Shown piece after piece: positions 17,876 through 53,901 of a stretch of 64,000 nucleotides of DNA (positions are counted from its first letter, which is position 1; each line of letters opens with the position of its first letter). Both the position numbers and the translations under genes were made by a program. The notes under the pieces were generated by a model that was given only the letters and a program-made list of their open reading frames with translations, made no database searches and had not been told where the DNA came from. The stretch spans positions 154,071,148-154,135,147 of the forward strand of contig NC_053040.3 in NCBI RefSeq assembly GCF_002575655.3, read 5' to 3'. The DNA is from Aegilops tauschii subsp. strangulata (lineage: Eukaryota > Streptophyta > Magnoliopsida > Poales > Poaceae).

Positions 17876-17983
17876 AGAAGGCCCATTGTGTCTACGGCCC
17901 GTATAAGGCCCATTGTTTCTATGCCACGTAGAAGGCCCATTGTTTCTACGGCCCTTAGAAGGCCCATTGTTTCTACGGTCCGT
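17876..17983 (+). repeat. Four 27-bp tandem units at the array insertion point
   Basis: Units start at 17876, 17903, 17930 and 17957, each near AGAAGGCCCATTGTTTCTAC. A degenerate fifth unit starts with the last base of the target duplication and continues at 51623 (GGAGGCCGATG), so the two flanks of the array were contiguous. Confidence 0.85.
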
Positions 17984-17984
17984 A
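17980..17984 (+). repeat. Left target-site duplication CCGTA
   Basis: CCGTA precedes the TGTAACGCC terminus at 17985 and is repeated exactly at 51618-51622. Confidence 0.9.
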
Positions 17985-20900
17985 TGTAACGCCCACGATG
18001 CAGCTATATCTCCCACGTGTCGAGGCACGACTTAGAGGCATAACCGCATAGTGGTTTTGTCGCAAGAAGGATCATCTTCACACAATCCCATGTAATGAAC
18101 AAGAATGGGATAAAGAGTTGGCTTACAATCGCCACTTCACACAATACATAAATAAATATCATCCATCATCCAAAATACAATCATATAGACCGACTACGGT
18201 CAAAATCCAGATGAAAATAAGACAACCCCAAATGCTAGATCCCCGATCGTCCCAACTGGGCTCCACTACTGATCATCAGGAAAAGACACATAATAACGAC
18301 CACGTTCCTCGTCGAACTCCCACTTGAGATCGACGCCATCATCTGCACTGGCATCGTCGGCACCTGCAACTGTTTTGGAAGTATCTGTGAGTCACGGGGA
18401 CTCAGCAATCTCACACCCACGAGATCAAGACTATTTAAGCTTATAGGACAAGGAGGTGCAAAGAGGTGGAGCTGCAGCGGCAAAAGCATGTATGGTGGCT
18501 AACTTACACAAATGAGAGCGAGAAGAGAAGCAATGGAACGGACGTCATCTAGCAATGACCAAGAAGAGGTCCTGAACACCTACTTACGTCATACATAACA
18601 CAGACCGTGTTCACTTCCCGGACTCCGCCGAGAAGAGACCATCACGGCTACACACGCACTTGGTGTATTTTAATTGGGTCAAGTGACAAGTTATCTACAA
18701 CCGGACATTAACAAATTCCCATCTGCCTCATAACCGCGGGCACGGCTTTCGAAAGATAATACCCTGCAGGGGTGTCCCAACTTAGCCCATCATAAGCTCT
18801 CACGGTCAACGAAGGATAAACCTTCTCCCGGAAAGACCCGATCAGTCTCGGAATCCCGGTTTACAAGACATCTCGACAATGGTAAAACAAGACCAGCAAA
18901 GCCGCCCGAATGTGCCGACAAATCCCGATAGGAGCTGCACATATCTCGTTCTCAGGGCACACCGGATGAACACTACGTACAGCTAAAACCAATCCTCGAG
19001 TTTCCCCAAGGTGGCGCTGCAAGTGGCTCTAGTTTGGACCAGCACTCAGAGGAACACTGGCCCGGGGGTTTAAAATAAAGATGACCCTCGGGCTCTAGAA
19101 AACTCGGGGGAAAAAGGTATAGGTCGCAAATGGTAAAACCAAGGTTGGGCCTTGCTGGAGGAGTTTTATTCAAGGCGAACTGTCAAGGGGGTCCCATAAA
19201 TCACCCGACCGCGTAAGAAACGCAAACTCAAGGAACATAATCCCGGTATAACAGTAACTAGGGCGGCAAGAGTGGAACAAAACACCAGGCATAAGGCCGA
19301 GCCTTCCACCCTTTACCAAAATATATAGATGCATTATTTAGATAAGATATATTGTGATATCCCAACATATCCATGTTCCAACATGGAACAAACTTCAACT
19401 TCACCTACAACTAGCAACGCTATAAGAGGGGCTGAGCAAAAGCGGAAATATAGCCAAACAACAGTTTGCTAGGAAAGGATGGTTAGGGCTGACATGGCTG
19501 AAATAGGAGACATGATATACCAAGTGATAGGTAGCGAGCATGGCAATAGAGCGAACAACTAGCATAGCAAAGATAGAAGTGATTTCGAGGGGTGGTCATC
19601 TTGCCTGCAAGATTCTCAGAGTTGTCGAAAGCTTGATCCTCGTAAGCGTACTCGACAGGTTCCTCGTTCACGAACTCGTCTCCCGGCTCTACCCAAGACA
19701 AGAACACAAACAAACGGAACCACAATCAACAACGAGAAATGCACAAGCAACATGATGCAAGACATGTATGATATGCAAGATATGATATGCGATGCATATG
19801 CGTGCTCCAGAAGGAAAATGATGAACATGGCAGTAACTTGGTAAACCAAGCATGCCACTGGAAATATGAGATGATTTCGGTCGAAATCGATATAAAGATC
19901 ACCGGAATCGGATGCACGGTTTGCAAATGGCAAGCAAAACAAGAATGACACTAATCTGCGATATACAGCAAGATAGCACTTAAAATACAACAAGCAATAA
20001 TGCTACAGCACCCCAACATAGCAACAAAGCACATGGCAGTAATCTACAGGAGATGCTTGACAAAATATGAACACTGAGCTACGGCTAGTTCACAACATAT
20101 CAAGCTCAAACAAGCATGGCAAAAGTGCAAAAGATTACAGGTTCACAGACTTGGTGAAAAACTGGACATGGCAGAAATCAGCATCAGGTAGCAATGTTCA
20201 GAGCACGAAATCAACATGCTACAGGAACTTAACATAGGAAAACAAGGCATGGTAGTGTTCTACTAAATGCACATGACAAAAATCCCTTACTGACCATAAG
20301 CCAAAAAGGACCAGAAGAAATGATGGCAAGCATGTAAACATAGCAAGTTTCGTTATCAGGTTTCAGACTTAGCAGAAAACAGAGCATGGCAGAAATATTA
20401 ATATGTAGGCCTCTTTGTGAGCTTGATGCACTCACTACAGAGCAATGCACGACAAACCAAGCATACCTACAGCAAGATGGCATGTTTATGAAGCTATCCA
20501 TGGCAAGAACAATTACATAGCATGTATGGATCAACTACAATAAGCTTGGCAAAAATGCATGTCATGTTAAGAATCTGCCAAAAATATTTTATAGAAAAAG
20601 TAGAGCAAGATTGAGTCATGCTATGGTACTCTAAAATTGCAAACAATTGCAGGACTGGATCAATTACAACTATATCTACAAAACATCCTTACTGAACATC
20701 TCCAAAATATGCATGGATCTCTCTGTAGCATCAAGTTTACATGGCAACAAAATTACAGCAGACAAAGACTTAGAGAAATCACTAAGTCCCTAAAAACAGA
20801 AATATTACGGGACCTACTTTGCATGCTTGTGCTAGTCACCACAGAGATCACAAAAATACATGGACTATACCACTGGAAAGATGGCATGGCATACTTCAAA

Positions 20901-21206
20901 ACACATGTAGAGCTCATGCTCAAAAGATGCACAGATTAAATGATACAAAAATGACAAATCTCCAAGTTCTGATAAGAACCAGAGATTAACAGCAACTAGC
21001 CCTCTTCCAACGAAGATTTGGGAATCAAGATGACCTGTAATGAAAATGGTGCAATTGAACAAAATGAAGAGCATCACGAGGCGAACAATTTGACATATTG
21101 TACACGCGAATCGGAGCTACATGCACAAAGTTATCGCATCCGGAACAGAGCAAGATACTGAGAAAAACTAAGACTTAGAAGAATTAGAGGTCGCGAGAAA
21201 GTCAAC

Positions 21207-21224
21207 GGGGGGGGGGGGGGGGGG
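21207..21224 (+). repeat. Poly-G tract (18 bases) in LTR1
   Basis: 18 consecutive G. The same site has 18 G in LTR2 (31045-31062), 19 in LTR3 (40874-40892) and 12 in LTR4 (50706-50717). Confidence 0.9.
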
Positions 21225-21645
21225 CTCTACCAGATCGGATCGAAGGTCGCCCGAGCTCCTCGAGCCCGAGCTCGTCGGCGGTGAGGCAGGGCCGGCGGGG
21301 CCCGGCGCGGCGAGGGCGCTGGCGGCGGAGGAGGGAGCCGGAGGCGGCGGTCGCCGGCGGGGGCGGCGGGGCCGGCGGAGGCGGCGGCGGCCGGTGGCGA
21401 CGGACGGTGGCGGTGGCGGCGGGGAGGCGCCGGCGGGTCGGCGGGGCGGCGTGGGGCGGGGCCGGCGGCGGTGCGCGGCGGCGCGGGCACAGGAGGAGGC
21501 GGCGGCGGGCTCGGGCGGGCCCACTGTGGGCTTCGCGGGCCGGCGGCGGGGCGGTTGGACGTTGTCCGGCGCGGACGGACGCGTCCGGCGGCGCGGAGGG
21601 AGAGGGTTACGGTTTCGTCTGAGATTTCGTTTTTCGGGATGCCCA

Positions 21646-22190: not shown

Positions 22191-22203
22191 ACACTCCACC
22201 ACT
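22191..22203 (-). other. Polypurine-tract-like site of copy 1
   Basis: The - strand reads GTGGTGGAGTGT immediately before the LTR terminus TGTAACACCCC. This is the expected place of the plus-strand primer. The same sequence stands at 32020-32032 and 41859-41871. Confidence 0.6.
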
Positions 22204-22226
22204 ACGAGAGGATCTCGTCCCGAGAT

Positions 22227-25200
22227 CTAGGACTGAAAGAACTCCGGATATTCGGAACGGAGATGGTCGTCGCGTTCCCAGGTGGCTTCCCGGTCGGAAT
22301 GGTGCGACCACTTCACTTTCAGGAATTTGATAGACTTGTTGCGAGTCTTGCGCTCAGTTACTTCAAGAATAGCAACTGGGTGCTCATGATAAGATAAATC
22401 TTCTTGGAGGTCAATCTCTTCGAAGTCGATAGTGCGCTCAGGCGTCTTGAAGCACTTGCGGAGCTGTGACACGTGGAACACATCGTGCACGTTCGCGAAG
22501 TTGGAAGGAAGCTCAAGTTGATAGGCGAGGTCGCCTCTTTTACCAATGATCTTGAAAGGACCCACGTATCTAGGGGCAAGCTTCCCTTTGATACCGAAGC
22601 GACGAGTGCCTTTCATTGGAGAGACGCGGAGGTAGACATGGTCTCCGATCTCGAAAGCCAAATCACGATGCTTACTATCATAGTAGCTCTTCTGACGCGA
22701 TTGCGCGGCTTTGAGATTATCACGGATGACTTTACACATTTCTTCAGCTTCAGTGATTAAGTCATTGCCAAGAAGTTGGCGTTCACTAGTCTCTGACCAA
22801 TTGAGAGGAGTACGGCACTTTCTGCCATAGAGAATCTCGAATGGGGCCTTGCCCGAACTCGCTTGGAAGCTGTTGTTGTAGGAGAATTCAGCATAAGGAA
22901 GACAATCTTCCCATTTCATGCCAAAGGAAATGACACAAGCCCTGAGCATATCTTCAAGAATTTGATTGACTCCCTCGACTTGGCCACTAGTTTGAGGATG
23001 GAAAGCTGTGCTGAAGCGAATGTTTGTGCCCATGGCCTTCTGGAAGGAGTCCCAGAACTTAGAGGTGAAGATGCTTCCACGATCAGAAGAAATCAATTGT
23101 GGAATGCCGTGCAAAGAGACAATTCTGGAGGTGTAGAGCTCTGCCAGCTGAGCTGCTGTGATGGATTCTTTGATAGGAAGGAAATGAGCCACTTTAGAGA
23201 GCTTGTCGATGACAACGAAGATAGCATCATTTCCGCGCTTGGACTTGGGAAATCCAGTCACGAAGTCCATTTCGATATGATCAAACTTCCATTCTGGGAT
23301 AGCAAGAGGTTGGAGGAGACCAGCTGGTCGTTGGTGTTCTGCTTTAACTCTTCGGCAGACATCACATTCATTCACGAATTGAGCAATTTCTCGCTTCATT
23401 CGAGTCCACCAATACGACTGCTTGAGGTCATGATACATCTTCGTACTTCCAGGATGAATGGAAAAGAGAGAATTGTGCGCCTCATTCATTATGACTTTCC
23501 TTAGATCACCTTTCGGAACCACAATCCGGTCCTCGAAGAACAAAGTGTCTCTGTCATCAATGCGATAGCACTTGTATTTGGAGAGACCCTTGTCGATACC
23601 ACGTTTCACCTTCTTCACCATGGCATCAAGGAGTTGTGCCTCACGAATTTGATCTTCCAAAGTAGGAGATACTATGAGGTTGGCAAGAACGCCTTGAGGA
23701 ACAACTTGGAGATTCAGCTTGCGGAAAGCTACACAAAGACCCGGTTGGAAAGGCTTGAGGATTAAGCTGTTGCAATAAGCTTTCCTGCTTAAAGCATCTG
23801 CGATGACATTTGCCTTGCCTGGAGTATATTCAATACTCGGATTGTACTCTTGAATCATTTCGACCCATCGAGTCTGCCTGAGGTTGAGGTTGGGCTGAGT
23901 GAAGATATACTTGAGACTCTTGTGATCAGTGAAAATGTCCACTTGTCTTCCCAACAAGAGATGTCTCCACGTAATCAATGCATGGACAACTGCCGCCAAC
24001 TCAAGATCGTGAGTGGGGTAGTTCTTCTCGTTGGGCTTCAATTGCCGAGAGGTATAGGCCACAACTTTCTTCTCTTGCATTAACACAGCACCGAGACCTT
24101 GGAGAGAAGCATCACAGAAAACTTCATACGGCTTGGATTCATCAGGAGGGGTCAAGACAGGAGCTGTGACTAGTTTCTGTTTGAGAGTGTTGAAAGCAAC
24201 GTCACACTCAGGAGACCAGACATACTTCACATGCTTCTGTAGGAGGTTGGAAAGAGGCTTTGCAATCCTGGAGAAATTCTCAACGAATCTCCGGCAATAG
24301 CTTGCAAGACCCAGAAAACTTCGAAGCTGCTTGACATTTTGAGGAGGTTCCCAATCCAGAACTGCGGACACCTTCTCGGGGTTAACAGCGATGCCTTTGG
24401 CAGAGATGATGTGACAAAGGAAAAGAACTTCATCAAGCCAAAACTCACATTTGGAGAACTTCGCATAGAATTGATACTCTCTGAGCTTGTCGAGCACCAA
24501 TCGCAAATGTTTGGCGTGATCCTGCTTGTTCTTGGAGAAGACCAAGATATCATCGAGATACACCAGAACGAATTCATTGGTGTAGGGGTTGAAGATGAAA
24601 TTCATCATCCGAGAGAACACCGGAGGAGCATTGACAAGGCCGAAAAACACGACAGTATATTCATAAGAACCAAAGCTTGTTCTGAATGCTGTCTTGGGAA
24701 TATCTTCTTCACGAATGCGAATCTGATGTTAACCCATACGAAGGTCAAGCTTCGAGAATACTTTAGCGCCCTTGAGTTGCTCAAAAAGCTCATTGATGTT
24801 GGTAAGTGGATACTTGTTCTTGATTGTCTTCTTGTTCAATGGACGGTAGTCGACACAAAGTCGGTCCGTGCCATCCTTCTTCTTGAAAAAAAGAACACCA
24901 CAACCCCATGGAGAAGAACTCGGTCTGATCAAACCCAGACGCTCTTGTTCATCGAGCTGCTTCTTCAATTCCTTCAGCTCATTTGGTCCAAGCTTGTATG
25001 GACGCTTGCAAACGGGTACAGTACCAGGCTCTAGTTCGATAACGAACTCAACTGGCCGGTGCGGAGGCATACCCGGAAGCTCTTCTGGAAAGACATCTTG
25101 ATACTCGCAAACGACTGGAATTTGAGAGATGGCATCCAATTCGCCCTTCTCATTGAGAGAGAAAAACCGAATGGTTTCATCGCGAGCGGCAAAAACAATC

Positions 25201-26669
25201 ACATCCTCAGACGAGTGTGTCAATTGAATTTGCCTGGCAGCACAATCAAGTTGAGCCTTGTGCTTAGAAAGCCAGTCCATCCCGAGAATAAGATCAATAT
25301 CCGAGTCACCAAGAACAATTGGAGAAGACTGAAATTTGTAGTCGCCTATCTTGATGGAAACATCCGGGACACAATTATTAGAAGTCATTTGCTTGCCCGG
25401 AGACACAATCTTCAACGGGATAGGGATCTTTTCCGTCACAAATTCATGCTTGGCAACAAAAGGTCTTGAAATGAAAGAAAGAGATGCACCAGTATCAAAA
25501 AGAACTTTTGCAGGAATATCATTAACAGGAAGATTACCCATTATCACATCAGTAGATTCCTCCGCTTGGGCTGCATTCATCATGTTCACCTTTGCAAACT
25601 TTGGGTTATGCTTGACCACTGCATTGCTGGAAGATCTGACAGGAGGAGGAGGAGGAAGACGCCTCTGGTTGAAGCACTTGTTAGCATAGTGACCTTTCTG
25701 CTGACATTTGTTGCAAGTCACCTCTGAGAGTGGACGGTGATAAGGAGCATTGGACTTGGGAGCTTGATTCTGAGACTTGTTCTGATAGCCAGAGTTAGAA
25801 GAGTTTGAAGAACCATGGCCACCTTTGTTCTTCTGCTGGTAAGGATGACGAAACGGAGGAGGAGGAGGCAACCAGAACTTCTGTTGCTTAGCTGTCACAA
25901 GTGAGGAAGAAGAAGACTGAACTGCGTCCCTGACTCTCTTCTTAGAAGCCTCACACTTGAGCTGAGCAGCCTCTTGCTTCAGTGCCATATTGTAGAATTG
26001 ATCAAAGTGAGTAGGCTCAACAAGAACGAGAGCTAACTGCAGATCCTCTTTAAGTCCACCTCTGAAGTGATAGATCATGCTCTTCTCATCAGGAACGTCT
26101 TGTTTAGCGAAGCGAGCAAGTTTCTGAAACTGAATGTTGTATTGATACACAGACATGTTTCCTTGCTTGAGATTGCAGAACTCCTCACGCTTGCTCTCAA
26201 CAACACTTTGTGGAATGTGGTGCGCTTTGAAGTCCCGACAGAAGTCAGTCCAAGTGATCACACGACCTCCTCTAGAATCTTTGTATTGCTGAAACCAATC
26301 AGCAGCTTGGTCCTTGAGCTGGAAAGAAGCGAACTTGACAAAGTCCTCAGGCCTGACATTGCTACATTCAAAATGCTTGTTGATGTCCACGAGCCAATCA
26401 TCGGCATCCGTGGCCTCGGCACAGTAGCTGAAAGACTCGGGCTGATTTGCAAGAAACTGGTTGAGAGTGGCAAAGTGAAACTGATTGTTGGCTTGACCTT
26501 GATTGCCTTGCCCCTGAGTACGTTCTTGCAAGAGTTGCAGAATCATCTGAGCATTGGCGTTGGTGGCTGCCATGATTGCTTGCCATGCCTCCGGAGGTGG
26601 AGGTGGTGGCGGAGGGTTCGCTTGACTCCCTTCATTGCGATCCGGATTCTGACGCGTTGGCGGAGCCAT
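22227..26669 (-). pseudogene. Chromovirus gag-pol, copy 1, with one nonsense codon in RT
   Basis: The frame runs from ATG 26669 to a stop at 22227, about 1480 codons, broken only by TAA at 24731-24729 (codon 647). In order: Pro-rich N-terminus, gag, CCHC knuckle ([14 protein letters not shown], about residue 317), protease (LFDTGAS, about 390), RT ([17 protein letters not shown], about 593; YLDD about 704), RNase H (FCDAS about 851; ELAA, TDHKS and ADALS motifs), integrase zinc finger (H, H, C, C about 1065-1105), integrase core (MDFVTG, SSDRG and GQVEG carry D, D and E) and a C-terminal chromodomain ([12 protein letters not shown]...EATWERDD). The nonsense codon follows LDLRMG, where family members read a GYHQ motif. 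All other catalytic residues look intact. Copy 1 has Ser where copies 2 and 3 have Gly in a WSET(S/G)ERQL segment. Confidence 0.93.
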
Positions 26670-27805
26670 CCTGAAGAGGGTGACATCCGTTAGCATCTTG
26701 ATAGACAAAAGATAAGTAGAATCAATGGACAGAAATTGCAATATATAGTCTTCGCAATAAACATTCGAACGAAGATGAACGAATGAATTCCGTAGTAAAT
26801 CATCACACTTCCATAAGTTGAGAAGCCACTTGAAAAAGATATGGAATGAACATATGAATTCGAAGCAACTCGAATACCACAATACAAAATAAAACCAAGT
26901 ATTGGCTTGCAGAATAAGCCGGAACAAACATATGATAGATATTTCGTCCGAAGTTTTCGTGGTGGGGCCCACACGGGCTCAATCGTACAGCACCATCATA
27001 TGCAGGGCTGTGCACATGACATACGAAGCGTCCCCGAGTCGGCAAAGCCATGGACTCTTTAAGACACAACGAGACCACTGTAAAATCAACCGTATACAGG
27101 CGGACCACTAGACGTCGAACCCCAATCTCATATCATGCGTCTGTCGGAAAGAAATCCTAAGGCTACTTGAATTCCCACTTATAAACTCCCGAAACTTTCT
27201 GGTTATGCAATCTGGTCTAGGGGATACAGGGGACACAAATATATATCACCCAAACTAGCAATCCCTAGATCCAGCTATATCCATCCGTCAACACATAACC
27301 AAGAAACCTTCGGAAATCGTTTACCTCAACCTTCGAAAAACATCCGTTATACAAGTTATGGCAATACTCCCGAACTCCCGCCCCAGTACTGGGTGGCGTC
27401 GAGGTGATCTCACCAACAACTGCATAAAAGAGATTTCGATGTCGGCAAAACTCAGGCATTCCAGAACTGCAACGATAAAATTGTGACGACAACACCTCGG
27501 AGCTCAACTCCCCGGGACACTGCCACAACCCCTAAATGACAGGAGGCACCAAGAACAATGTTCTCGTCACAAATCAATCGGAACGATTCCAAGATACCCG
27601 CGTGATCCTAAATTTTTTTTAGTGAAATTTGAGGAGAGAATAGTCAAAACTTCTACGTCAGGAGACCTCACCAGAGCGACGAAGGGACTGAGGAGTAAAA
27701 AGAATCCTAGTCTCCGATATATACAATCCTAAGACTCAAAACATTTTTATTCTAGACTCAACAACGCCAGCGATTCGATCAAGCAGGGGCTCCTAAGTCG
27801 GGGAA

Positions 27806-27820
27806 GGCTCTGATTACCAA
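27806..27820 (-). other. Primer-binding-like site of copy 1
   Basis: Two bases after the LTR2 end on the - strand comes TTGGTAATCAGAGCC. It resembles the initiator tRNA-Met site TGGTATCAGAGC with one extra A. Identical sites stand at 37635-37649 and 47473-47487. Confidence 0.65.
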
Positions 27821-27822
27821 CT

Positions 27823-30800
27823 TGTAACGCCCACGATGCGGCTATATCTCCCACGTGTCGAGGCACGACTTAGAGGCATAACCGCATAGTGGTTTTGTCG
27901 CAAGAAGGGTCATCTTCACACAATCCCATGTAATGAACAAGAATGGGATAAAGAGTTGGCTTACAATCGCCACTTCACACAATACATAAATAAATATCAT
28001 CCATCATCCAAAATACAATCATATAGACCGACTACGGTCAAAATCCAGATGAAAATAAGACAACCCCAAATGCTAGATCCCCGATCGTCCCAACTGGGCT
28101 CCACTACTGATCATCAGGAAAAGACACATAATAACGACCACGTTCCTCGTCGAACTCCCACTTGAGATCGACGCCATCATCTGCACTGGCATCGTCGGCA
28201 CCTGCAACTGTTTTGGAAGTATCTGTGAGTCACGGGGACTCAGCAATCTCACACCCACGAGATCAAGACTATTTAAGCTTATAGGACAAGGAGGTGCAAA
28301 GAGGTGGAGCTGCAGCGGCAAAAGCATGTATGGTGGCTAACTTACACAAATGAGAGCGAGAAGAGAAGCAATGGAACGGACGTCATCTAGCAATGACCAA
28401 GAAGAGGTCCTGAACACCTACTTACGTCATACATAACACAGACCGTGTTCACTTCCCGGACTCCGCCGAGAAGAGACCATCACGGCTACACACGCACTTG
28501 GTGTATTTTAATTGGGTCAAGTGACAAGTTATCTACAACCGGACATTAACAAATTCCCATCTGCCTCATAACCGCGGGCACGGCTTTCGAAAGATAATAC
28601 CCTGCAGGGGTGTCCCAACTTAGCCCATCATAAGCTCTCACGGTCAACGAAGGATAAACCTTCTCCCGGAAAGACCCGATCAGTCTCGGAATCCCGGTTT
28701 ACAAGACATCTCGACAATGGTAAAACAAGACCAGCAAAGCCGCCCGAATGTGCCGACAAATCCCGATAGGAGCTGCACATATCTCGTTCTCAGGGCACAC
28801 CGGATGAACACTACGTACAGCTAAAACCAATCCTCGAGTTTCCCCAAGGTGGCGCTGCAAGTGGCTCTAGTTTGGACCAGCACTCAGAGGAACACTGGCC
28901 CGGGGGTTTAAAATAAAGATGACCCTCGGGCTCTAGAAAACTCGGGGGAAAAAGGTATAGGTCGCAAATGGTAAAACCAAGGTTGGGCCTTGCTGGAGGA
29001 GTTTTATTCAAGGCGAACTGTCAAGGGGGTCCCATAAATCACCCGACCGCGTAAGAAACGCAAACTCAAGGAACATAATCCCGGTATAACAGTAACTAGG
29101 GCGGCAAGAGTGGAACAAAACACCAGGCATAAGGCCGAGCCTTCCACCCTTTACCAAAATATATAGATGCATTATTTAGATAAGATATATTGTGATATCC
29201 CAACATATCCATGTTCCAACATGGAACAAACTTCAACTTCACCTACAACTAGCAACGCTATAAGAGGGGCTGAGCAAAAGCGGAAATATAGCCAAACAAC
29301 AGTTTGCTAGGAAAGGATGGTTAGGGCTGACATGGCTGAAATAGGAGACATGATATAGCAAGTGATAGGTAGCGAGCATGGCAATAGAGCGAACAACTAG
29401 CATAGCAAAGATAGAAGTGATTTCGAGGGGTGGTCATCTTGCCTGCAAGATTCTCAGAGTTGTCGAAAGCTTGATCCTCGTAAGCGTACTCGACAGGTTC
29501 CTCGTTCACGAACTCGTCTCCCGGCTCTACCCAAGACAAGAACACAAACAAACGGAACCACAATCAACAACGAGAAATGCACAAGCAACATGATGCAAGA
29601 CATGTATGATATGCAAGATATGATATGCGATGCATATGCGTGCTCCAGAAGGAAAATGATGAACATGGCAGTAACTTGGTAAACCAAGCATGCCACTGGA
29701 AATATGAGATGATTTCGGTCGAAATCGATATAAAGATCACCGGAATCGGATGCACGGTTTGCAAATGGCAAGCAAAACAAGAATGACACTAATCTGCGAT
29801 ATACAGCAAGATAGCACTTAAAATACAACAAGCAATAATGCTACAGCACCCCAACATAGCAACAAAGCACATGGCAGTAATCTACAGAAGATGCTTGACA
29901 AAATATGAACACTGAGCTACGGCTAGTTCACAACATATCAAGCTCAAACAAGCATGGCAAAAGTGCAAAAGATTACAGGTTCACAGACTTAGTGAAAAAC
30001 TGGACATGGCAGAAATCAGCATCAGGTAGCAATGTTCAGAGCACGAAATCAACATGCTACAGGAACTTAACATAGGAAAACAAGGCATGGTAGTGTTCTA
30101 CTAAATGCACATGACAAAAATCCCTTACTGACCATAAGCCAAAAAGGACCAGAAGAAATGATGGCAAGCATGTAAACATAGCAAGTTTCGTTATCAGGTT
30201 TCAGACTTGGCAGAAAACAGAGCATGGCAGAAATATTAATATGTAGGCCTCTTTGTGAGCTTGATGCACTCACTACAGAGCAATGCACGACAAACCAAGC
30301 ATACCTACAGCAAGATGGCATGTTTATGAAGCTATCCATGGCAAGAACAATTACATAGCATGTATGGATCAACTACAATAAGCTTGGCAAAAATGCATGT
30401 CATGTTAAGAATCTGCCAAAAATATTTTATAGAAAAAGTAGAGCAAGATTGAGTCATGCTATGGTACTCTAAAATTGCAAACAATTGCAGGACTGGATCA
30501 ATTACAACTATATCTACAAAACATCCTTACTGAACATCTCCAAAATATGCATGGATCTCTCTGTAGCATCAAGTTTACATGGCAACAAAATTACAGCAGA
30601 CAAAGACTTAGAGAAATCACTAAGTCCCTAAAAACAGAAATATTACGGGACCTACTTTGCATGCTTGTGCTAGTCACCACAGAGATCAAAAAAATACAAG
30701 GACTATACCACTGGAAAGATGGCATGGCATACTTCAAAACACATGTAGAGCTCATGCTCAAAAGATGCACAGATTAAATGATACAAAAATGACAAATCTC

Positions 30801-32019
30801 CAAGTTCTGATAAGAACCAGAGATTAACAGCAACTAGCCCTCTTCCAACGAAGCTTTGGGAATCAAGATGACCTGTAATGAAAATGGTGCAATTGAACAA
30901 AATGAAGAGCATCACGAGGCGAACAATTTGACATATTGTACACGCGAATCGGAGCTACATGCACAAAGTTATCGCATCCGGAACAGAGCAAGATACTGAG
31001 AAAAACTAAGACTTAGAAGAATTAGAGGTCGCGAGAAAGTCAACGGGGGGGGGGGGGGGGGGCTCTACCAGATCGGATCGAAGGTCGCCCGAGCTCCTCG
31101 AGCCCGAGCTCGTCGGCGGTGAGGCAGGGCCGGCGGGGCCCGGCGCGGCGAGGGCGCTGGCGGCGGAGGAGGGAGCCGGAGGCGGCGGTCGCCGGCGGGG
31201 GCGGCGGGGCCGGCGGCGGCCGGTGGCGACGGACGGTGGCGGTGGCGGCGGGGAGGCGCCGGCGGGTCGGCGGGGCGGCGTGGGGCGGGGCCGGCGGCGG
31301 TGCGCGGCGGCGCGGGCACAGGAGGAGGCGGCGGCGGGCTCGGGCGGGCCCACTGTGGGCTTCGCGGGCCGGCGGCGGGGCGGTTGGACGTTGTCCGGCG
31401 CGGACGGACGCGTCCGGCGGCGCGGAGGGAGAGGGTTACGGTTTCGTCTGAGATTTCGTTTTTCGGGATGCCCACTTATAAATAGGTAGAGGGAGCTAGG
31501 AGACTCCAAATGAGGTGCGGTTTTCGCCCACACGATCGTGATCGAACGACCTAGAGCATGGAAGAGAGTTTGGTGGGTTTTGGGCTGGTTTTGGAGGGGT
31601 TTTTTGCTGGACACTCAAATGGACTTTGCGGATGCCCGGTTAACCGTTGGAGTAACAAACGACCTCCGAATGGAACGAAACTTGACCGGTAGTCTCCGGG
31701 TGGTATATTAAGGACACTTGACAAGCCTCGGTCCATTCCGAGAAAGTTTGACACACGCACACGAAAGAAAACAGGAGGGGTGCACCGGAGGAGATAGGAG
31801 CGCCGGATTGGAAAACGGACAATGAGGAAAATGCTCGGATGCATGAGACGAACACGTATGCGAATGCAATGCGCATGATGACATGATATGAAAATGCATG
31901 ACATGACAAAATACAAAACGAAAGACAAAACCCGACAACGGAGGGAAAAACATATCACATAGCCGGAAATGGCAAGAGTCGGAGTTACAAATATGGCAAG
32001 TTACATGCGGGGTGTTACA
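27823..32019 (-). mobile_element. LTR2 (inner LTR)
   Basis: It serves as 5' LTR of copy 1 and 3' LTR of copy 2. Near its left end it shares GATGCGG and AGGGTCATC with LTR3 and LTR4 against LTR1; over most of its length it follows LTR1 at sites where LTR4 differs. It has a private 9-bp loss in the GC block near 31215 and a private AAAAAAATACAAGG variant near 30689. The G tract is 18 bases at 31045. Confidence 0.9.
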
Positions 32020-40600: not shown

Positions 40601-41858
40601 GATTAAATGATACAAAAATGACAAATCTCCAAGTTCTGATAAGAACCAGAGATTAACAGCAACTAGCCCTCTTCCAACGAAGATTTGGGAATCAAGATGA
40701 CCTGTAATGAAAATGGTGCAATTGAACAAAATGAAGAGCATCACGAGGCGAACAATTTGACATATTGTACACGCGAATCGGAGCTACATGCACAAAGTTA
40801 TCGCATCCGGAACAGAGCAAGATACTGAGAAAAACTAAGACTTAGAAGAATTAGAGGTCGCGAGAAAGTCAACGGGGGGGGGGGGGGGGGGGCTCTACCA
40901 GATCGGATCGAAGGTCGCCCGAGCTCCTCGAGCCCGAGCTCGTCGGCGGTGAGGCAGGGCCGGCGGGGCCCGGCGCGGCGAGGGCGCTGGCGGCGGAGGA
41001 GGGAGCCGGAGGCGGCGGTCGCCGGCGGGGGCGGCGGGGCCGGCGGAGGCGGCGGCGGCCGGTGGCGACGGACGGTGGCGGTGGCGGCGGGGAGGCGCCG
41101 GCGGGTCGGCGGGGCGGCGTGGGGCGGGGCCGGCGGTGGTGCGCGGCGGCGCGGGCACAGGAGGAGGCGGCGGCGGGCTCGGGCGGGCCCACTGTGGGCT
41201 TCGCGGGCCGGCGGCGGGGCGGTTGGACGTTGTCCGGCGCGGACGGACGCGTCCGGCGGCGCGGAGGGAGAGGGTTACGGTTTCGTCTGAGATTTCGTTT
41301 TTCGGGATGCCCACTTATAAATAGGTAGAGGGAGCTAGGAGACTCCAAATGAGGTGCGGTTTTCGCCCACACGATCGTGATCGAACGACCTAGAGCATGG
41401 AAGAGAGTTTGGTGGGTTTTGGGCTGGTTTTGGAGGGGTTTTTTGCTGGACACTCAAATGGACTTTGCGGATGCCCGGTTAACCGTTGGAGTAACAAACG
41501 ACCTCCGAATGGAACGAAACTTGACCGGTAGTCTCCGGGTGGTATATTAAGGACACTTGACAAGCCTCGGTCCATTCCGAGAAAGTTTGACACACGCACA
41601 CGAAAGAAAACAGGAGGGGTGCACCGGAGGAGATAGGAGCGCCGGATTGGAAAACGGACAATGAGGAAAATGCTCGGATGCATGAGACGAACACGTATGC
41701 GAATGCAATGCGCATGATGACATGATATGAAAATGCATGACATGACAAAATACAAAACGAAAGACAAAACCCGACAACGGAGGGAAAAACATATCACATA
41801 GCCGGAAATGGCAAGAGTCGGAGTTACAAATATGGCAAGTTACATGCGGGGTGTTACA
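37652..41858 (-). mobile_element. LTR3 (inner LTR)
   Basis: It serves as 5' LTR of copy 2 and 3' LTR of copy 3. The left end is of LTR2/LTR4 type, most of the rest of LTR1 type. Private changes include CTTGTCGAAC near 37976, GCTAACATACAC near 38165, CATGTCTCAACATGG near 39039 and GGCGGTGGTGC near 41132. The G tract is 19 bases at 40874. Confidence 0.9.
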
Positions 41859-44800
41859 ACACTCCACCACTACGAGAGGATCTCGTCCCGAGATCTAGGA
41901 CTGAAAGAACTCCGGATATTCGGAACGGAGATGGTCGTCGCGTTCCCAGGTGGCTTCCCGGTCGGAATGGTGCGACCACTTCACTTTCAGGAATTTGATA
42001 GACTTGTTGCGAGTCTTGCGCTCAGTTACTTCAAGAATAGCAACTGGGTGCTCATGATAAGATAAATCTTCTTGGAGGTCAATCTCTTCAAAGTCGATAG
42101 TGCGCTCAGGCGTCTTGAAGCACTTGCGGAGCTGTGACACGTGGAACACATCGTGCACGTTCGCGAAGTTGGAAGGAAGCTCAAGTTGATAGGCGAGGTC
42201 GCCTCTTTTACCAATGATCTTGAAAGGACCCACGTATCTAGGGGCAAGCTTCCCTTTGATACCGAAGCGACGAGTGCCTTTCATTGGAGAGACGCGGAGG
42301 TAGACATGGTCTCCGATCTCGAAAGCCAAATCACGATGCTTACTATCATAGTAGCTCTTCTGACGCGATTGCGCGGCTTTGAGATTATCACGGATGACTT
42401 TACACATTTCTTCAGCTTCAGTGATTAAGTCATTGCCAAGAAGTTGGCGTTCACCAGTCTCTGACCAATTGAGAGGAGTACGGCACTTTCTGCCATAGAG
42501 AATCTCGAATGGGGCCTTGCCCGAACTCGCTTGGAAGCTGTTGTTGTAGGAGAATTCAGCATAAGGAAGACAATCTTCCCATTTCATGCCAAAGGAAATG
42601 ACACAAGCCCTGAGCATATCTTCAAGAATTTGATTGACTCCCTCGACTTGGCCACTAGTTTGAGGATGGAAAGCTGTGCTGAAGCGAATGTTTGTGCCCA
42701 TGGCCTTCTGGAAGGAGTCCCAGAACTTAGAGGTGAAGATGCTTCCACGATCAGAAGAAATCAATTGTGGAATGCCGTGCAAAGAGACAATTCTGGAGGT
42801 GTAGAGCTCTGCCAGCTGAGCTGCTGTGATGGATTCTTTGATAGGAAGGAAATGAGCCACTTTAGAGAGCTTGTCGATGACAACGAAGATAGCATCATTT
42901 CCGCGCTTGGACTTGGGAAATCCAGTCACGAAGTCCATTTCGATATGATCAAACTTCCATTCTGGGATAGCAAGAGGTTGGAGGAGACCAGCTGGTCGTT
43001 GGTGTTCTGCTTTAACTCTTCGGCAGACATCACATTCATTCACGAATTGAGCAATTTCTCGCTTCATTCGAGTCCACCAATACGACTGCTTGAGGTCATG
43101 ATACATCTTCGTACTTCCAGGATGAATGGAAAAGAGAGAATTGTGCGCCTCATTCATTATGACTTTCCTTAGATCACCTTTCGGAACCACAATCCGGTCC
43201 TCGAAGAACAAAGTGTCTCTGTCATCAATGCGATAGCACTTGTATTTGGAGAGACCCTTGTCGATACCACGTTTCACCTTCTTCACCATGGCATCAAGGA
43301 GTTGTGCCTCACGAATTTGATCTTCCAAAGTAGGAGATACTATGAGGTTGGCAAGAACGCCTTGAGGAACAACTTGGAGATTCAGCTTGCGGAAAGCTAC
43401 ACAAAGACCCGGTTGGAAAGGCTTGAGGATTAAGCTGTTGCAATAAGCTTTCCTGCTTAAAGCATCTGCGATGACATTTGCCTTGCCTGGAGTATATTCA
43501 ATACTCGGATTGTACTCTTGAATCATTTCGACCCATCGAGTCTGCCTGAGGTTGAGGTTGGGCTGAGTGAAGATATACTTGAGACTCTTGTGATCAGTGA
43601 AAATGTCCACTTGTCTTCCCAACAAGAGATGTCTCCACGTAATCAATGCATGGACAACTGCCGCCAACTCAAGATCGTGAGTGGGGTAGTTCTTCTCGTT
43701 GGGCTTCAATTGCCGAGAGGTATAGGCCACAACTTTCTTCTCTTGCATTAACACAGCACCGAGACCTTGGAGAGAAGCATCACAGAAAACTTCATACGGC
43801 TTGGATTCATCAGGAGGGGTCAAGACAGGAGCTGTGACTAGTTTCTGTTTGAGAGTGTTGAAAGCAACGTCACACTCAGGAGACCAGACATACTTCACAT
43901 GCTTCTGTAGGAGGTTGGAAAGAGGCTTTGCAATCCTGGAGAAATTCTCAACGAATCTCCGGCAATAGCTTGCAAGACCCAGAAAACTTCGAAGCTGCTT
44001 GACATTTTGAGGAGGTTCCCAATCCAGAACTGCGGACACCTTCTCGGGGTTAACAGCGATGCCTTTGGCAGAGATGATGTGACAAAGGAAAAGAACTTCA
44101 TCAAGCCAAAACTCACATTTGGAGAACTTCGCATAGAATTGATACTCTCTGAGCTTGTCGAGCACCAATCGCAAATGTTTGGCGTGATCCTGCTTGTTCT
44201 TGGAGAAGACCAAGATATCATCGAGATACACCAGAACGAATTCATTGGTGTAGGGGTTGAAGATGAAATTCATCATCCGAGAGAACACCGGAGGAGCATT
44301 GACAAGGCCGAAAAACACGACAGTATATTCATAAGAACCAAAGCTTGTTCTGAATGCTGTCTTGGGAATATCTTCTTCACGAATGCGAATCTGATGTTAA
44401 CCCATACGAAGGTCAAGCTTCGAGAATACTTTAGCGCCCTTGAGTTGCTCAAAAAGCTCATTGATGTTGGTAAGTGGATACTTGTTCTTGATTGTCTTCT
44501 TGTTCAATGGACGGTAGTCGACACAAAGTCGGTCCGTGCCATCCTTCTTCTTGAAAAAAAGAACACCACAACCCCATGGAGAAGAACTCGGTCTGATCAA
44601 ACCCAGACGCTCTTGTTCATCGAGCTGCTTCTTCAATTCCTTCAGCTCATTTGGTCCAAGCTTGTATGGACGCTTGCAAACGGGTACAGTACCAGGCTCT
44701 AGTTCGATAACGAACTCAACTGGCCGGTGCGGAGGCATACCCGGAAGCTCTTCTGGAAAGACATCTTGATACTCGCAAACGACTGGAATTTGAGAGATGG

Positions 44801-47489
44801 CATCCAATTCGCCCTTCTCATTGAGAGAGAAAAACCGAATGGTTTCATCGCGAGCGGCAAAAACAATCACATCCTCAGACGAGTGTGTCAATTGAATTTG
44901 CCTGGCAGCACAATCAAGTTGAGCCTTGTGCTTAGAAAGCCAGTCCATCCCGAGAATAAGATCAATATCCGAGTCACCAAGAACAATTGGAGAAGACTGA
45001 AATTTGTAGTCGCCTATCTTGATGGAAACATCCGGGACACAATTATTAGAAGTCATTTGCTTGCCCGGAGACACAATCTTCAACGGGATAGGGATCTTTT
45101 CCGTCACAAATTCATGCTTGGCAACAAAAGGTCTTGAAATGAAAGAAAGAGATGCACCAGTATCAAAAAGAACTTTTGCAGGAATATCATTAACAGGAAG
45201 ATTACCCATTATCACATCAGTAGATTCCTCCGCTTGGGCTGCATTCATCATGTTCACCTTTGCAAACTTTGGGTTATGCTTGACCACTGCATTGCTGGAA
45301 GATCTGACAGGAGGAGGAGGAGGAAGACGCCTCTGGTTGAAGCACTTGTTAGCATAGTGACCTTTCTGCTGACATTTGTTGCAAGTCACCTCTGAGAGTG
45401 GACGGTGATAAGGAGCATTGGACTTGGGAGCTTGATTCTGAGACTTGTTCTGATAGCCAGAGTTAGAAGAGTTTGAAGAACCATGGCCACCTTTGTTCTT
45501 CTGCTGGTAAGGATGACGAAACGGAGGAGGAGGAGGCAACCAGAACTTCTGTTGCTTAGCTGTCACAAGTGAGGAAGAAGAAGACTGAACTGCGTCCCTG
45601 ACTCTCTTCTTAGAAGCCTCACACTTGAGCTGAGCAGCCTCTTGCTTCAGTGCCATATTGTAGAATTGATCAAAGTGAGTAGGCTCAACAAGAACGAGAG
45701 CTAACTGCAGATCCTCTTTAAGTCCACCTCTGAAGTGATAGATCATGCTCTTCTCATCAGGAACGTCTTGTTTAGCGAAGCGAGCAAGTTTCTGAAACTG
45801 AATGTTGTATTGATACACAGACATGTTTCCTTGCTTGAGATTGCAGAACTCCTCACGCTTGCTCTCAACAACACTTTGTGGAATGTGGTGCGCTTTGAAG
45901 TCCCGACAGAAGTCAGTCCAAGTGATCACACGACCTCCTCTAGAATCTTTGTATTGCTGAAACCAATCAGCAGCTTGGTCCTTGAGCTGGAAAGAAGCGA
46001 ACTTGACAAAGTACTCAGGCCTGACATTGCTACATTCAAAATGCTTGTTGATGTCCACGAGCCAATCATCGGCATCCGTGGCCTCGGCACAGTAGCTGAA
46101 AGACTCGGGCTGATTTGCAAGAAACTGGTTGAGAGTGGCAAAGTGAAACTGATTGTTGGCTTGACCTTGATTGCCTTGCCCCTGAGTACGTTCTTGCAAG
46201 AGTTGCAGAATCATCTGAGCATTGGCGTTGGTGGCTGCCATGATTGCTTGCCATGCCTCCGGAGGTGGAGGTGGTGGCGGAGGGTTCGCTTGACTCCCTT
46301 CATTGCGATCCGGATTCTGACGCGTTGGCGGAGCCATCCTGAAGAGGGTGACATCCGTTAGCATCTTGATAGACAAAAGATAAGTAGAATCAATGGACAG
46401 AAATTGCAATATATAGTCTTCGCAATAAACATTCGAACGAAGATGAACGAATGAATTCCGTAGTAAATCATCACACTTCCATAAGTTGAGAAGCCACTTG
46501 AAAAAGATATGGAATGAACATATGAATTCGAAGCAACTCGAATACCACAATACAAAATAAAACCAAGTATTGGCTTGCAGAATAAGCCGGAACAAACATA
46601 TGATAGATATTTCGTCCGAAGTTTTCGTGGTGGGGCCCACACGGGCTCAATCGTACAGCACCATCATATGCAGGGCTGTGCACATGACATACGAAGCGTC
46701 CCCGAGTCGGCAAAGCCATGGACTCTTTAAGACACAACGAGACCACTGTAAAATCAACCGTATACAGGCGGACCACTAGACGTCGAACCCCAATCTCATA
46801 TCATGCGTCTGTCGGAAAGAAATCCTAAGGCTACTTGAATTCCCACTTATAAACTCCCGAAACTTTCTGGTTATGCAATCTGGTCTGGGGATACAGGGGA
46901 CACAAATATATATCACCCAAACTAGCAATCCCTAGATCCAGCTATATCCATCCGTCAACACATAACCAAGAAACCTTCGGAAATCGTTTACCTCAACCTT
47001 CGAAAAACATCCGTTATACAAGTTATGGCAATACTCCCGAACTCCCGCCCCAGTACTGGGTGGCGTCGAGGTGATCTCACCAACAACTGCATAAAAGAGA
47101 TTTCGATGTCGGCAAAACTCAGGCATTCCAGAACTGCAACGATAAAATTGTGACGACAACACCTCGGAGCTCAACTCCCCGGGACACTGCCACAACCCCT
47201 AAATGACAGGAGGCACCAAGAACAATGTTCTCGTCACAAATCGATCGGAACGATTCCAAGATACCCGCGTGATCCTAAATTTTTTTTAGTGAAATTTGAG
47301 GAGAGAATAGTCAAAACTTCTACGTCAGGAGACCTCACCAGAGCGACGAAGGGACTGAGGAGTAAAAAGAATCCTAGTCTCCGATATATACAATCCTAAG
47401 ACTCAAAACATTTTTATTCTAGACTCAACAACGCCAGCGATTCGATCAAGCAGGGGCTCCTAAGTCGGGGAAGGCTCTGATTACCAACT
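41859..47489 (-). mobile_element. Internal region 3 (INT3)
   Basis: 5631 bp, one base shorter than the other two because of a deletion near 46887 (CTGGTCTGGGG against CTGGTCTAGGGG). It includes a leader without genes (46338-47472), the primer site at 47473-47487 and the polypurine-like site at 41859-41871. Confidence 0.9.
41895..46337 (-). pseudogene. Chromovirus gag-pol, copy 3, same nonsense codon
   Basis: The start is ATG 46337; the frame is broken only by TAA at 44399-44397, the same codon as in copies 1 and 2. A private change in gag turns Asp to Tyr in the NVRPE(D/Y)FVKF segment near 46013. Catalytic motifs of protease, RT, RNase H and integrase and the chromodomain are present as in the other copies. 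Confidence 0.93.
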
Positions 47490-50400
47490 TGTAACGCCCA
47501 CGATGCGGCTATATCTCCCACGTGTCGAGGCACGACTTAGAGGCATAACCGCATAGTGGTTTTGTCGCAAGAAGGGTCATCTTCACACAATCCCATGTAA
47601 TGAACAAGAATGGGATAAAGAGTTGGCTTACAATCGCCACTTCACACAATACATAAATAAATATCATCCATCATCCAAAATACAATCATATAGACCGACT
47701 ACGGTCAAAATCCAGATGAAAATAAGACAACCCCAAATGCTAGATCCCCGATCGTCCCAACTGGGCTCCACTACTGATCATCAGGAAAAGACACATAATA
47801 ACGACCACGTTCCTCGTCGAACTCCCACTTGAGATCGACGCCATCATCTGCACTGGCATCGTCGGCACCTGCAACTGTTTTGGAAGTATCTGTGAGTCAT
47901 AGGGACTCAGCAATCTCACACCCACGAGATCAAGACTATTTAAGCTTATAGGACAAGGAGGTGCAAAGAGGTGGAGCTGCAGCGGCAAAAGCATGTATGG
48001 TGGCTAACTTACGCAAATGAGAGCGAGAAGAGAAGCAATGGAACGGACGTCATCTAGCAATGACCAAGAAGAGGTCCTGAACACCTACTTACGTCATACA
48101 TAACACAGACCGTGTTCACTTCCCGGACTCCGCCGAGAAGAGACCATCACGGCTACACACGCACTTGGTGTATTTTAATTGGGTCAAGTGACAAGTTATC
48201 TACAACCGGACATTAACAAATTCCCATCTGCCTCATAACCGCGGGCACGGCTTTCGAAAGATAATACCCTGCAGGGGTGTCCCAACTTAGCCCATCATAA
48301 GCTCTCACGGTCAACGAAGGATAAACCTTCTCCCGGAAAGACCCGATCAGTCTCGGAATCCCGGTTTACAAGACATCTCGACAATGGTAAAACAAGACCA
48401 GCAAAGCCGCCCGAATGTGCCGACAAATCCCGATAGGAGCTGCACATATCTCGTTCTCAGGGCACACCGGATGAACACTACGTACAGCTAAAACCAATCC
48501 TCGAGTTTCCCCAAGGTGGCGCTGCAAGTGGCTCTAGTTTGGACCAGCACTCAGAGGAACACTGGCCCGGGGGTTTAAAATAAAGATGACCCTCGGGCTC
48601 TAGAAAACCCGGGGGAAAAAGGTATAGGTCGCAAATGGTAAAACCAAGGTTGGGCCTTGCTGGAGGAGTTTTATTCAAGGCGAACTGTCAAGGGGGTCCC
48701 ATAAATCACCCGACCGCGTAAGGAACGCAAACTCAAGGAACATAATCCCGGTATAACAGTAACTAGGGCGGCAAGAGTGGAACAAAACACCAGGCATAAG
48801 GCCGAGCCTTCCACCCTTTACCAAAATATATAGATGCATTATTTAGATAAGATATATTGTGATATCCCAACATATCCATGTTCCAACATGGAACAAACTT
48901 CAACTTCACCTGCAACTAGCAACGCTATAAGAGGGGCTGAGCAAAAGCGGAAACATAGCCAAACAACAGTTTGCTAGGAAAGGATGGTTAGGGCTGACAT
49001 GGCTGAAATAGGAGACATGATATAGCAAGTGATAGGTAGCGAGCATGTCAATAGAGCGAACAACTAGCATAGCAAAGATAGAAGTGATTTCGAGGGGTGG
49101 TCATCTTGCCTGCAAGATTCTCAGAGTTGTCGAAAGCTTGATCCTCGTAAGCGTACTCGACAGGTTCCTCGTTCACGAACTCGTCTCCCAGCTCTACCCA
49201 AGACAAGAACACAAACAAACGGAACCACAATCAACAACGAGAAATGCACAAGCAACATGATGCAAGACATGTATGATATGCAAGATATGATATGCGATGC
49301 ATATGCGTGCTCCGGAAGGAAAATGATGAACATGGAAGTAACTTGGTAAACCAAGCATGCCACTGGAAATATGAGATGATTTCGGTCGAAATCGATATAA
49401 AGATCACCGGAATCGGATGCACGGTTTGCAAATGGCAAGCAAAACAAGAATGACACTAATCTGCGATATACAGCAAGATAGCACTTAAAATACAACAAGC
49501 AATAATGCTACAGCACCCCAACATAGCAACAAAGCACATGGCAGTAATATACAGAAGATGATTGACAAAAGATGAACACTGAGCTACGGCTAATTCACAA
49601 CATATCAAGCTCAAACAAGCATGGCAAAAGTGCAAAAGATTACAGGTTCACAGACTTGGTGAAAAACTGGACATGGCAGAAATCAGCATCAGGTAGCAAT
49701 GTTCAGAGCACGAAATCAACATGCTACAGGAAATTAACATAGGAAAGCAAGGCATGGTAGTGTTCTACTAAATGCACATGAAAAAAATCCCTTACTGACC
49801 ATAAGCCAAAAAGGACCAGAAGAAATGATGGCAAGCATGTAAACATAGCAAGTTTCGTTATCAGGTTTCAGACTTGGCAGAAAACAGAGCATGGCAGAAA
49901 TATTAATATGTAGGCCTCTTTGTGAGCTTGATGCACTCACTACAGAGCAATGCACGACAAACCAAGCATACCTACAGCAAGATGGCATGTTTATGAAGCT
50001 ATCCATGGCAAAAACAATTACATAGCATGTATGGATCAACTACAATAAGCTTGGCAAAAATGCATGTCATGTTAAGAATCTGCCAAAAATATTTTATAGA
50101 GAAAGTAGAGCAAGATTGAGTCATGCTATGGTACTCTAAAATTGCAAACAATTGTAGGACTGGATCAATTACAACTATATCTACAAAACATCCTTACTGA
50201 ACATCTCCAAAATATGCATGGATCTCTCTGTAGCATCAAGTTTACATGGCAACAAAATTACAGCAGACAAAGACTTGGAGAAATCACTAAGTCCCTGAAA
50301 ACAGAAATATTACAGGACCTACTTTGCATGCTTGTGCTAGTCACCACAGAGATCACAAAAATACATGGACTATACCACTGGAAATATGGCATGGCATACT

Positions 50401-51617
50401 TCAAAACACATGTAGAGCTCATGCTCAAAAGATGCACAGATTAAATGATACAAAAATGACAAATCTCCAAGTTCTGATAAGAACCAGAGATTAACAGCAA
50501 CTAACCCTCTTCCAACGAAGATTTGGGAATCAAGATGACCTCTAATGAAAATGGGGCAATTGAACAAAATGAAGAGCATCACGAGGCGAACAATTTGACA
50601 TATTATACGCATGAATCGGAGCTACATGCACAAAGTTATCGCATCGGGAACAGAGCAAGATACTGAGAAAAACTAAGAAGAATTAGAGGTCGCGAGACAG
50701 TCAAAGGGGGGGGGGGGCTCTACCAGATCGGATCGAAGGTCGCCCGAGCTCCTCGAGCCCGAGCTCGTCGGCGGTGAGGCAGGGCCGGTGGGGCCCGGCG
50801 CGGCGAGGGCGCTGGCGGCGGAGGAGGGCGCCGGAGGCGGCGGTCGCCGGCGGGGGCGGCGGAGGCGGTGGCGGGTCGGCGGGGCGGGACCGGCGGCGGT
50901 GCGCGGCGGCGCGGGCACAGGAGGAGGCGGCGGCGGGCTCGGGCGGGCCCACTGCGGGCTTCGCGGGCCGGCGGCGGGGCGGTTGGACGTTGTCCGGCGC
51001 GGACGGACGCGTCCGGCGGCGCGGAGGGAGAGGGTTAGGGTTTCGTCTGAGATTTCGTTTTTCGGGATGCCCACTTATAAATAGGTAAAGGGAGCTAGGA
51101 GACTCCAAATGAGGTGCGGTTTTCGCCCACACGATCGTGATCGAACGACCTAGAGCATGGAAGAGAGTTTGGTGGGTTTTGGGCTGGTTTTGGAGGGGTT
51201 TTTTGCTGGACACTCAAATGGACTTTGCGGATGCCCGGTTAACCGTTGGAGTACCAAACGACCTCCGAATGGAACGAAACTTGACCGGTAGTCTCCGGGT
51301 GGTATATTAAGGACACTTGACAAGCCTCGGTCCATTCTGAGAAAGTTTGACACACGCACACGAAAGAAAACAGGAGGGGTGCACCGGAGGAGATAGGAGC
51401 GCCGGATTGGAAAACGGACAACGGGGAAATGCTCGGATGCATGAGACGAACACGTATGCGAATGCAATGCGCATGATGACATGATATGAAAATGCATGAC
51501 ATGAAAAAATACAAAACGAAAGACAAAACCCGACAACGGAGGGAAAAACATATCACATAGCCGGAAATGGCAAGAGTTGGAGTTACAAATATGGCAAGTT
51601 ACATGCGGGGTGTTACA
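47490..51617 (-). mobile_element. LTR4 (right outer LTR), the most diverged copy
   Basis: 4128 bp. I see more than 40 bases private to LTR4, for example CATAGGG near 47889, AACCCGGGGG near 48606, ACATGGAAGT near 49330 and TTGTAGGAC near 50151. It also has a shortened G tract (12), loss of about 70 bp in the GC block (50850-50900) and loss of an 8-bp GACTTAGA word near 50675. Its TG and CA ends are intact and it is followed by CCGTA. Confidence 0.9.
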
Positions 51618-51622
51618 CCGTA
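51618..51622 (+). repeat. Right target-site duplication CCGTA
   Basis: Exact copy of 17980-17984, directly after the LTR4 end. Confidence 0.9.
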
Positions 51623-53896: not shown

Positions 53897-53901
53897 CAAG
53901 T
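53897..53901 (+). repeat. Left target duplication GCAAG of the solo LTR
   Basis: GCAAG directly before TGTTGGGGAACG; repeated at 55613-55617. Confidence 0.92.

Follow-up and report, generated by a model that had tools for sequence, protein, structure and literature searches.

How did a Ty3/gypsy retrotransposon locus of Aegilops tauschii subsp. strangulata come to hold four long terminal repeats (LTRs) and three internal regions within one pair of target-site duplications? The locus lies in a window, by which we mean the whole stretch of 64,000 nucleotides analyzed here (C6:154071148-154135147 in the 4.10-Gb genome). Only one target duplication is present, the right outer LTR (L4) is by far the most diverged of the four, the other three (L1 to L3) form one clade with shared derived changes, and the internal copies (I1 to I3) are nearly identical. 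Very likely, a single insertion aged at this site and a unit made of its left LTR and internal region was later copied twice in place.

Architecture and borders of the array

In a self-comparison of the window, a single long family of direct repeats emerged, recurring every 9,829 to 9,838 bp. It forms an array of 33.6 kb (17985-51617), in which LTRs of 4,128 to 4,207 bp alternate head to tail with internal regions of 5,631 to 5,632 bp and an LTR stands at both ends; the only other repeat of at least 200 bp in the window is a 941-column pair with 80% identity. Probes for the 20-base head and tail of the LTR (up to 4 mismatches) occur four times each on the plus strand of the window and have no occurrence on its minus strand. 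Self-comparison and end probes thus confirm the order of four LTRs and three internal regions given in the original prediction. The array is made up as follows.

17980..17984, no strand: left target-site duplication CCGTA, directly adjoining L1; the same 5 bases adjoin L4
17985..22190, minus strand: L1, outer left LTR (3' LTR in the sense of the element), 4206 bp
22191..27822, minus strand: I1, internal region, 5632 bp
27823..32019, minus strand: L2, inner LTR, 4197 bp
32020..37651, minus strand: I2, internal region, 5632 bp
37652..41858, minus strand: L3, inner LTR, 4207 bp
41859..47489, minus strand: I3, internal region, 5631 bp
47490..51617, minus strand: L4, outer right LTR (5' LTR in the sense of the element), 4128 bp, the diverged one
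51618..51622, no strand: right target-site duplication CCGTA, adjoining L4

CCGTA adjoins the outer ends of the array only (17980-17984 and 51618-51622). All three inner LTR heads are preceded by CAACT and all three inner tails are followed by ACACT, both of which are internal-region sequence. The 5-bp target duplication is present once, at the outer ends, and is absent from the inner borders; the exact LTR ends bear out this part of the prediction as well. CCGTA also occurs within the host repeat unit, so the match between the two duplications is slightly less telling than it would be in unique DNA. When the flanks are joined, they are in register with the host repeat over 17 bases, 13 of them matching. 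Because CCGTA stands at both ends and the joined flanks are in register, recombination between two independent neighboring insertions, which would give nonmatching end duplications, was rejected.

Order of events in the LTRs and internal regions

L4 differs from L1 at 54/4128 sites (1.31%), from L2 at 53/4128, and from L3 at 57/4128; a larger alignment, in which gaps of a GC-rich stretch are placed otherwise, gives 55, 55, and 59 for these pairs. Differences are far fewer within the rest of the array, both among the other LTRs (L1-L2, 10/4197, 0.24%; L1-L3, 12/4206, 0.29%; L2-L3, 10/4197, 0.24%) and among the internal regions (I1-I2, 3/5632; I1-I3, 4/5631; I2-I3, 3/5631; 0.05 to 0.07%), and the divergence of L1-L4 exceeds that of I1-I3 with a Fisher p of 3e-16.

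These differences were polarized with 20 of the 36 nonarray matches to a 1-kb LTR query in the same genome (the 19 best plus one lower); two of these outgroups (L015 and L027) end early, two (L011 and L012) lack inner stretches, and the nearest near-full-length one differs from L1 at 154/4089 sites. We took a state as ancestral when at least 80% of the outgroup letters showed it. Of the 50 columns that set L1 to L3 apart from L4, 16 are derived in L1 to L3, 29 are derived in L4, and 5 are ambiguous. Changes derived in one copy number 3 in L1, 3 in L2, and 5 in L3 (plus 1 ambiguous). The remaining columns comprise one derived in L2 and L3 (plus 1 ambiguous), one derived in L2, L3, and L4, and an ambiguous one that joins L2 and L4 against L1 and L3. 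CpG context, which suggests 10 changes for L4 and 5 for the stem of L1 to L3, agrees with the 29:16 ratio from polarization. The lines of the two original LTRs gathered 29 and 19 changes, with no rate difference (p 0.19, ambiguous columns excluded); changes thus accumulated in both original LTRs before the copying.

A FastTree phylogeny of 24 LTRs has the topology (L4,(L1,(L2,L3))), with support of 1.000 for the array LTRs, 0.995 for L1 to L3, and 0.853 for L2 plus L3 (1.000, 0.994, and 0.868 when the LTRs of a second array, described below, are added); a branch of 0.016 leads to the clade of the four array LTRs. Since the outer LTRs are far more diverged than the internal copies and L1 to L3 share derived changes, we infer that the insertion aged first and was then copied in place. 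Because the two original LTRs had diverged before the copying, a single sequence suffices to reconstruct the order of events.

The events would have run as follows. A Ty3/gypsy-type element on the minus strand would have inserted into a 27-bp host repeat, making one CCGTA duplication, and its two LTRs would have diverged as in any old insertion. Much later, the unit of left LTR plus internal region would have been copied in place twice, giving L1-I1-L2-I2-L3-I3-L4. The simplest route may have been an unequal exchange between misaligned LTRs, followed by another between misaligned units, on sister or homologous chromosomes. The original insertion presumably had one unit, the exchange was presumably reciprocal unequal crossing-over between LTRs, and the order of the two steps would make L2 and L3 the youngest pair.

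An array of the same family and with the same layout was found elsewhere in the genome, as four matches on C2, spaced 9,835 to 9,836 bp apart, to a query from the right half of L4.

C2:236139907-236173657, same orientation: second array, four LTRs and three internal regions, 33.75 kb, duplication CTACT at both ends

Stretches one period beyond either end of the C2 array gave no match. Like the first array, it has four LTRs, three internal regions, and a 5-bp duplication of its own; it differs in that its inner LTRs are identical (0/4196) and cluster with the outer LTR on the right instead of that on the left (12/4196 against the right one). Its outer pair differs at 15/4196 sites, and the younger age of the inner pair supports copying after insertion; the youngest copies on C2 postdate the insertion. 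Of the columns that vary on C2, 24 in number, the inner pair shares 6 derived states with the right outer LTR (columns 382 to 4006) and 1 with the left outer LTR (column 3261); the inner pair alone is derived at 6, the left outer LTR at 3, and the right outer LTR at 2, and the other 6 are ambiguous. The inner LTRs are right-like up to column 4006, except at 3261.

Several observations weigh against copying in place as set out above. If the crossover fell at a random point of the LTR, the inner LTRs should resemble L4 in their left part and L1 in their right part, and an L4-derived left part is not firmly shown. L2 and L3 match L1 from column 524 onward, except at 1536 and 2066 (and 2387 in L2), so that the exchange point would fall within roughly the initial eighth of the LTR, unless its trace was erased later. 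Columns 18 and 87 fit an L4-derived left part and equally fit private changes of L1. As a signal of an L4-derived left end in L2 and L3 (chance 0.004), they were dropped after polarization, L1 alone being derived there, because the private count of L1 (3) then resembles those of L2 (3) and L3 (5). Column 2066 joins L2, L3, and L4 against L1 and 19/19 outgroup letters, and the internal-region tree weakly pairs I1 with I3 (0.836), contrary to L2 plus L3. Per-site differences among L1 to L3 are 4 to 5 times those among I1 to I3 (p 0.01 to 0.02 per pair, the pairs being nonindependent), an excess that plain copying does not predict and that gene conversion by the many other LTR copies of the family could have produced. 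The same discrepancy appears in the ages: assuming 1.3e-8 substitutions per site per year, the outer pair is about 0.5 million years old, L1 to L3 about 90 to 110 thousand, and the internal copies about 20 to 27 thousand, where the last two would be expected to be equal. On C2, the outer pair is not the most diverged, since 21/4196 sites separate the left outer LTR from the inner ones, and pairwise differences among the internal regions number 2, 8, and 10 in about 5,640 sites, with one region apart; the first duplication there is therefore old and might go back to the insertion itself.

Both arrays fit the polarity of a crossover only with exchange points near opposite ends of the LTR, which could reflect chance, later conversion, or a unit-wise copying step. 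Inner LTRs in both arrays track one outer LTR over nearly the full length. It is conceivable, if rather doubtful, that the family multiplies in place regularly, by unit-wise copying (replication-linked or end-directed) and not by exchange at random points.

Alternative origins of the array

Could the three units have arrived together as complementary DNA (cDNA)? Template switching or read-through RNA might have yielded a concatemer that integrated at once and then decayed, a mechanism proposed in an excerpt of PMC1950507 for complex insertions of Triticeae, and the one duplication at the outer ends and the intact inner borders are as such an event would leave them. A concatemer, however, predicts that the outer LTRs were identical at the start, and so at least as alike as the others, and that LTRs and internal regions are of equal age, whereas L1 and L4 differ by 1.31% against 0.24 to 0.29% for the other LTRs and 0.05 to 0.07% for the internal copies; L1 to L3 also have 16 common derived changes. 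It would be viable only if all but L4 had been homogenized later, and we regard it as improbable. The original prediction had offered multiplication in place or a multimeric cDNA; the mutation pattern upholds the former, and cDNA alone fails on the contrast between outer LTRs and internal copies. Still less likely is a later role of cDNA, in which cDNA or a one-LTR circle from this locus recombined into the resident element, as in yeast cDNA recombination. Such cDNA would draw its U3 from L1 and its U5 (the left end in window coordinates) from L4, and this make-up agrees with both columns 18 and 87 and, beyond them, with most of L2 and L3. These are two sites only, both explicable as private changes of L1; the interrupted reverse transcriptase (RT) frame would need help from another copy; the C2 array, in the same orientation, has inner LTRs that match the opposite LTR; and a scan of the LTR for TATA and poly(A) motifs did not find the U3/R/U5 borders.

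L4 itself might owe its divergence to gene conversion from another family member, which overwrote it in a three-unit insertion or in any younger array. The L1-L4 differences are indeed uneven, with 14 to the left and 40 to the right of column 2050 (p 0.0005), and are densest in columns 3001 to 3500 (15), the most GC-rich part (0.66). Two queries bear on a donor, one taken from the left half of L1 (18500-19500) and one from the right half of L4 (49500-50600). With the former, the four array LTRs are the four best matches among 40 scored of 5,062 candidates (L4 at 1783 bits, the following copy at 1741); with the latter, a 1.1-kb query, L4, L1, L3, and L2 are best at 98 to 100% and the next copy reaches 96% (40 scored of 6,545 candidates), so the right half of L4 is closer to L1 to L3 than to any other scored copy. 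Among the 20 fetched copies, none is as close to L4 as L1 to L3 are (best 32/1660, against 11/1660 for L1-L4). The single clade of the four LTRs speaks against overwriting too, as do the changes in the left half, where L4 is again the most changed (11 private columns, against 3 in L1, 0 in L2, and 4 in L3), and the 16 derived changes that L1 to L3 hold of their own. Judged from these sequences, L4 does not look imported from elsewhere, and its overwriting is very unlikely. To an assembly artefact, in which the assembler repeated one real unit, we give equally little credence: the internal regions are 99.9% alike, but each of L1 to L4 and I1 to I3 has substitutions of its own, the window is without N bases, and the same assembly holds a second array with another duplication.

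The element, its surroundings, and related arrays

The array element is a minus-strand Ty3/gypsy retrotransposon of an abundant family. Pfam was run on unit 1, and units 2 and 3 were compared by the lengths of their open frames and by the stop. Matches above the cutoff in unit 1 follow one another along the minus strand as gag, protease, RT, RNase H, and integrase, and a stop lies within RT.

24729..26978, minus strand: unit 1 gag-protease open frame, 749 amino acids, ending at the in-frame stop; Retrotrans_gag and RVP_2
22227..24728, minus strand: unit 1 second open frame, 833 amino acids, after the stop in the same frame; most of RT, RNase H, integrase, and a weak chromodomain match
34558-36807 and 32056-34557, minus strand: unit 2 open frames, lengths as in unit 1, same stop
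44397-46646 and 41895-44396, minus strand: unit 3 open frames, lengths as in unit 1, same stop

The RVT_1 match of unit 1 begins at profile position 80, and for the chromodomain that chromoviruses, such as the Tekay lineage, have at the C terminus of the integrase there is a weak PF00385 match (E 0.00049; 20.4 bits, below the Pfam cutoff of 25.1). An identical in-frame RT stop is present in I1, I2, and I3 and absent from 5/5 other internal copies of the same genome; I1 to I3 also agree at 51 columns where these five copies have another common state. The best named protein matches are to Aegilops tauschii for gag-protease and to Triticum aestivum and Aegilops geniculata for pol. Searches of viral contigs and of a single genome for each prokaryote species confirmed no relatives of the pol frame, in keeping with a plant element. 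Genome-wide, the LTR-internal junction (up to 3 mismatches) occurs 2,689 + 2,822 = 5,511 times, against 0 for a reversed control, which marks the family as abundant. About 100 zero-mismatch junctions listed on part of C1, out of the 5,511, include three same-strand neighbor pairs 9.6 to 9.85 kb apart (113347106/113356956, 149772852/149782681, and 153244455/153254074; two closer pairs, at 6.6 and 7.2 kb, were excluded), which are candidates for further tandems of the family.

The insertion site is a tandem repeat of the host sequence.

17844..17984, plus strand: host 27-bp tandem repeat, 5.2 copies, insertion site of the element

To the left of the array stand five units (17844-17978) and the start of a sixth; to the right stands only the remainder of that interrupted unit (the joined unit has 10/27 mismatches), and no further 27-bp unit was found on that side. 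The claim that a CACTA 27-bp repeat of the host continues on the far side therefore holds for the rest of the interrupted unit and not for any further one, and the CACTA identity of the host is plausible but unproven. A terminus-like CACTACAAAAAAA lies at 16703, a type of motif not rarer than chance (2 matches against 1.31 expected; 0 for a stricter form), and a search of the right flank for the far end of a CACTA element gave no good match, 12-base matches with one mismatch lying only inside the internal regions. CACTACAAAAAAA begins where the left LTR-like repeat stops compared with its relative at 54806 and is followed by repeats rich in GGCCCAT/GGCCCGT; this segment (16703-17984) could represent an end of a CACTA transposon that entered another LTR. 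The LTR-like repeats themselves (15793-16703 and 53901-54806) are direct repeats, 80% alike, that flank the array and both begin with TGTTGGGGAAC; they look like LTRs of another element family. Elsewhere in the window, a different Ty3/gypsy element upstream of the array has gag-protease and RT-RNase H frames on the plus strand (11904-14828), a plus-strand open frame at 420-1028 matches a B3 DNA-binding domain (E 1.3e-8) and is perhaps part of a plant gene, and a cluster of diverged internal repeats of about 50 to 250 bp, 72 to 81% alike, occupies 55904-57593.

How does the array compare with known tandem LTR elements? Tandem LTR insertions have been published for rice, Arabidopsis, almond, and cotton, their origin being left open in the available part of the report (PMC11899658). 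TLI1, TLI2, and the IDENTAM survey of rice and other plants described there resemble the present case in LTRs common to the units, one 5-bp duplication, and a mostly gypsy membership, and TLI2 lies inside another transposon, a Mutator-like element (MULE), a further likeness. TLI1 and TLI2, the two loci detailed, have two units each, whereas the present array has three. Template-switch insertions of Triticeae and other cereals, in the excerpted account (PMC1950507), likewise involve cereal LTR elements with common LTRs and one 5-bp duplication; their outer LTRs are highly homologous, whereas here L4 is the odd one out and the outer pair is among the least alike. Head-to-tail arrays with many LTRs are also reported, in the parts of the papers at hand, for the terminal-repeat retrotransposons in miniature (TRIMs) Cassandra, with at least 12 LTR copies (PMC7215508), and Wukong, with four, six, and seven LTRs (PMC4528315), but TRIMs are small and without coding capacity, in contrast to the present unit of 9.8 kb with gag-pol remnants. 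For barley BARE1, at least 4,600 three-LTR structures are given (PMC7215508). The size of the array stands, but its description as unusually long is weakened by the four-LTR array on C2 and by these published arrays, in which much smaller elements form a larger number of LTRs.

A literature search, judged by titles, gave no report on this locus. Tandem LTR elements are a published class, to which the present array adds an unusually clear record of its own making. For the locus followed in PMC11899658, the authors state that they were unable to distinguish complex insertion from later recombination; the present array allows the distinction, and its divergence pattern favors recombination after insertion. 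The same test, which sets the divergence of the outer pair against that of the inner LTRs and internal regions and polarizes it with other copies of the family, could be applied to all arrays of a long-read genome and would reveal how frequently retrotransposon DNA is added by multiplication in place and not by transposition.

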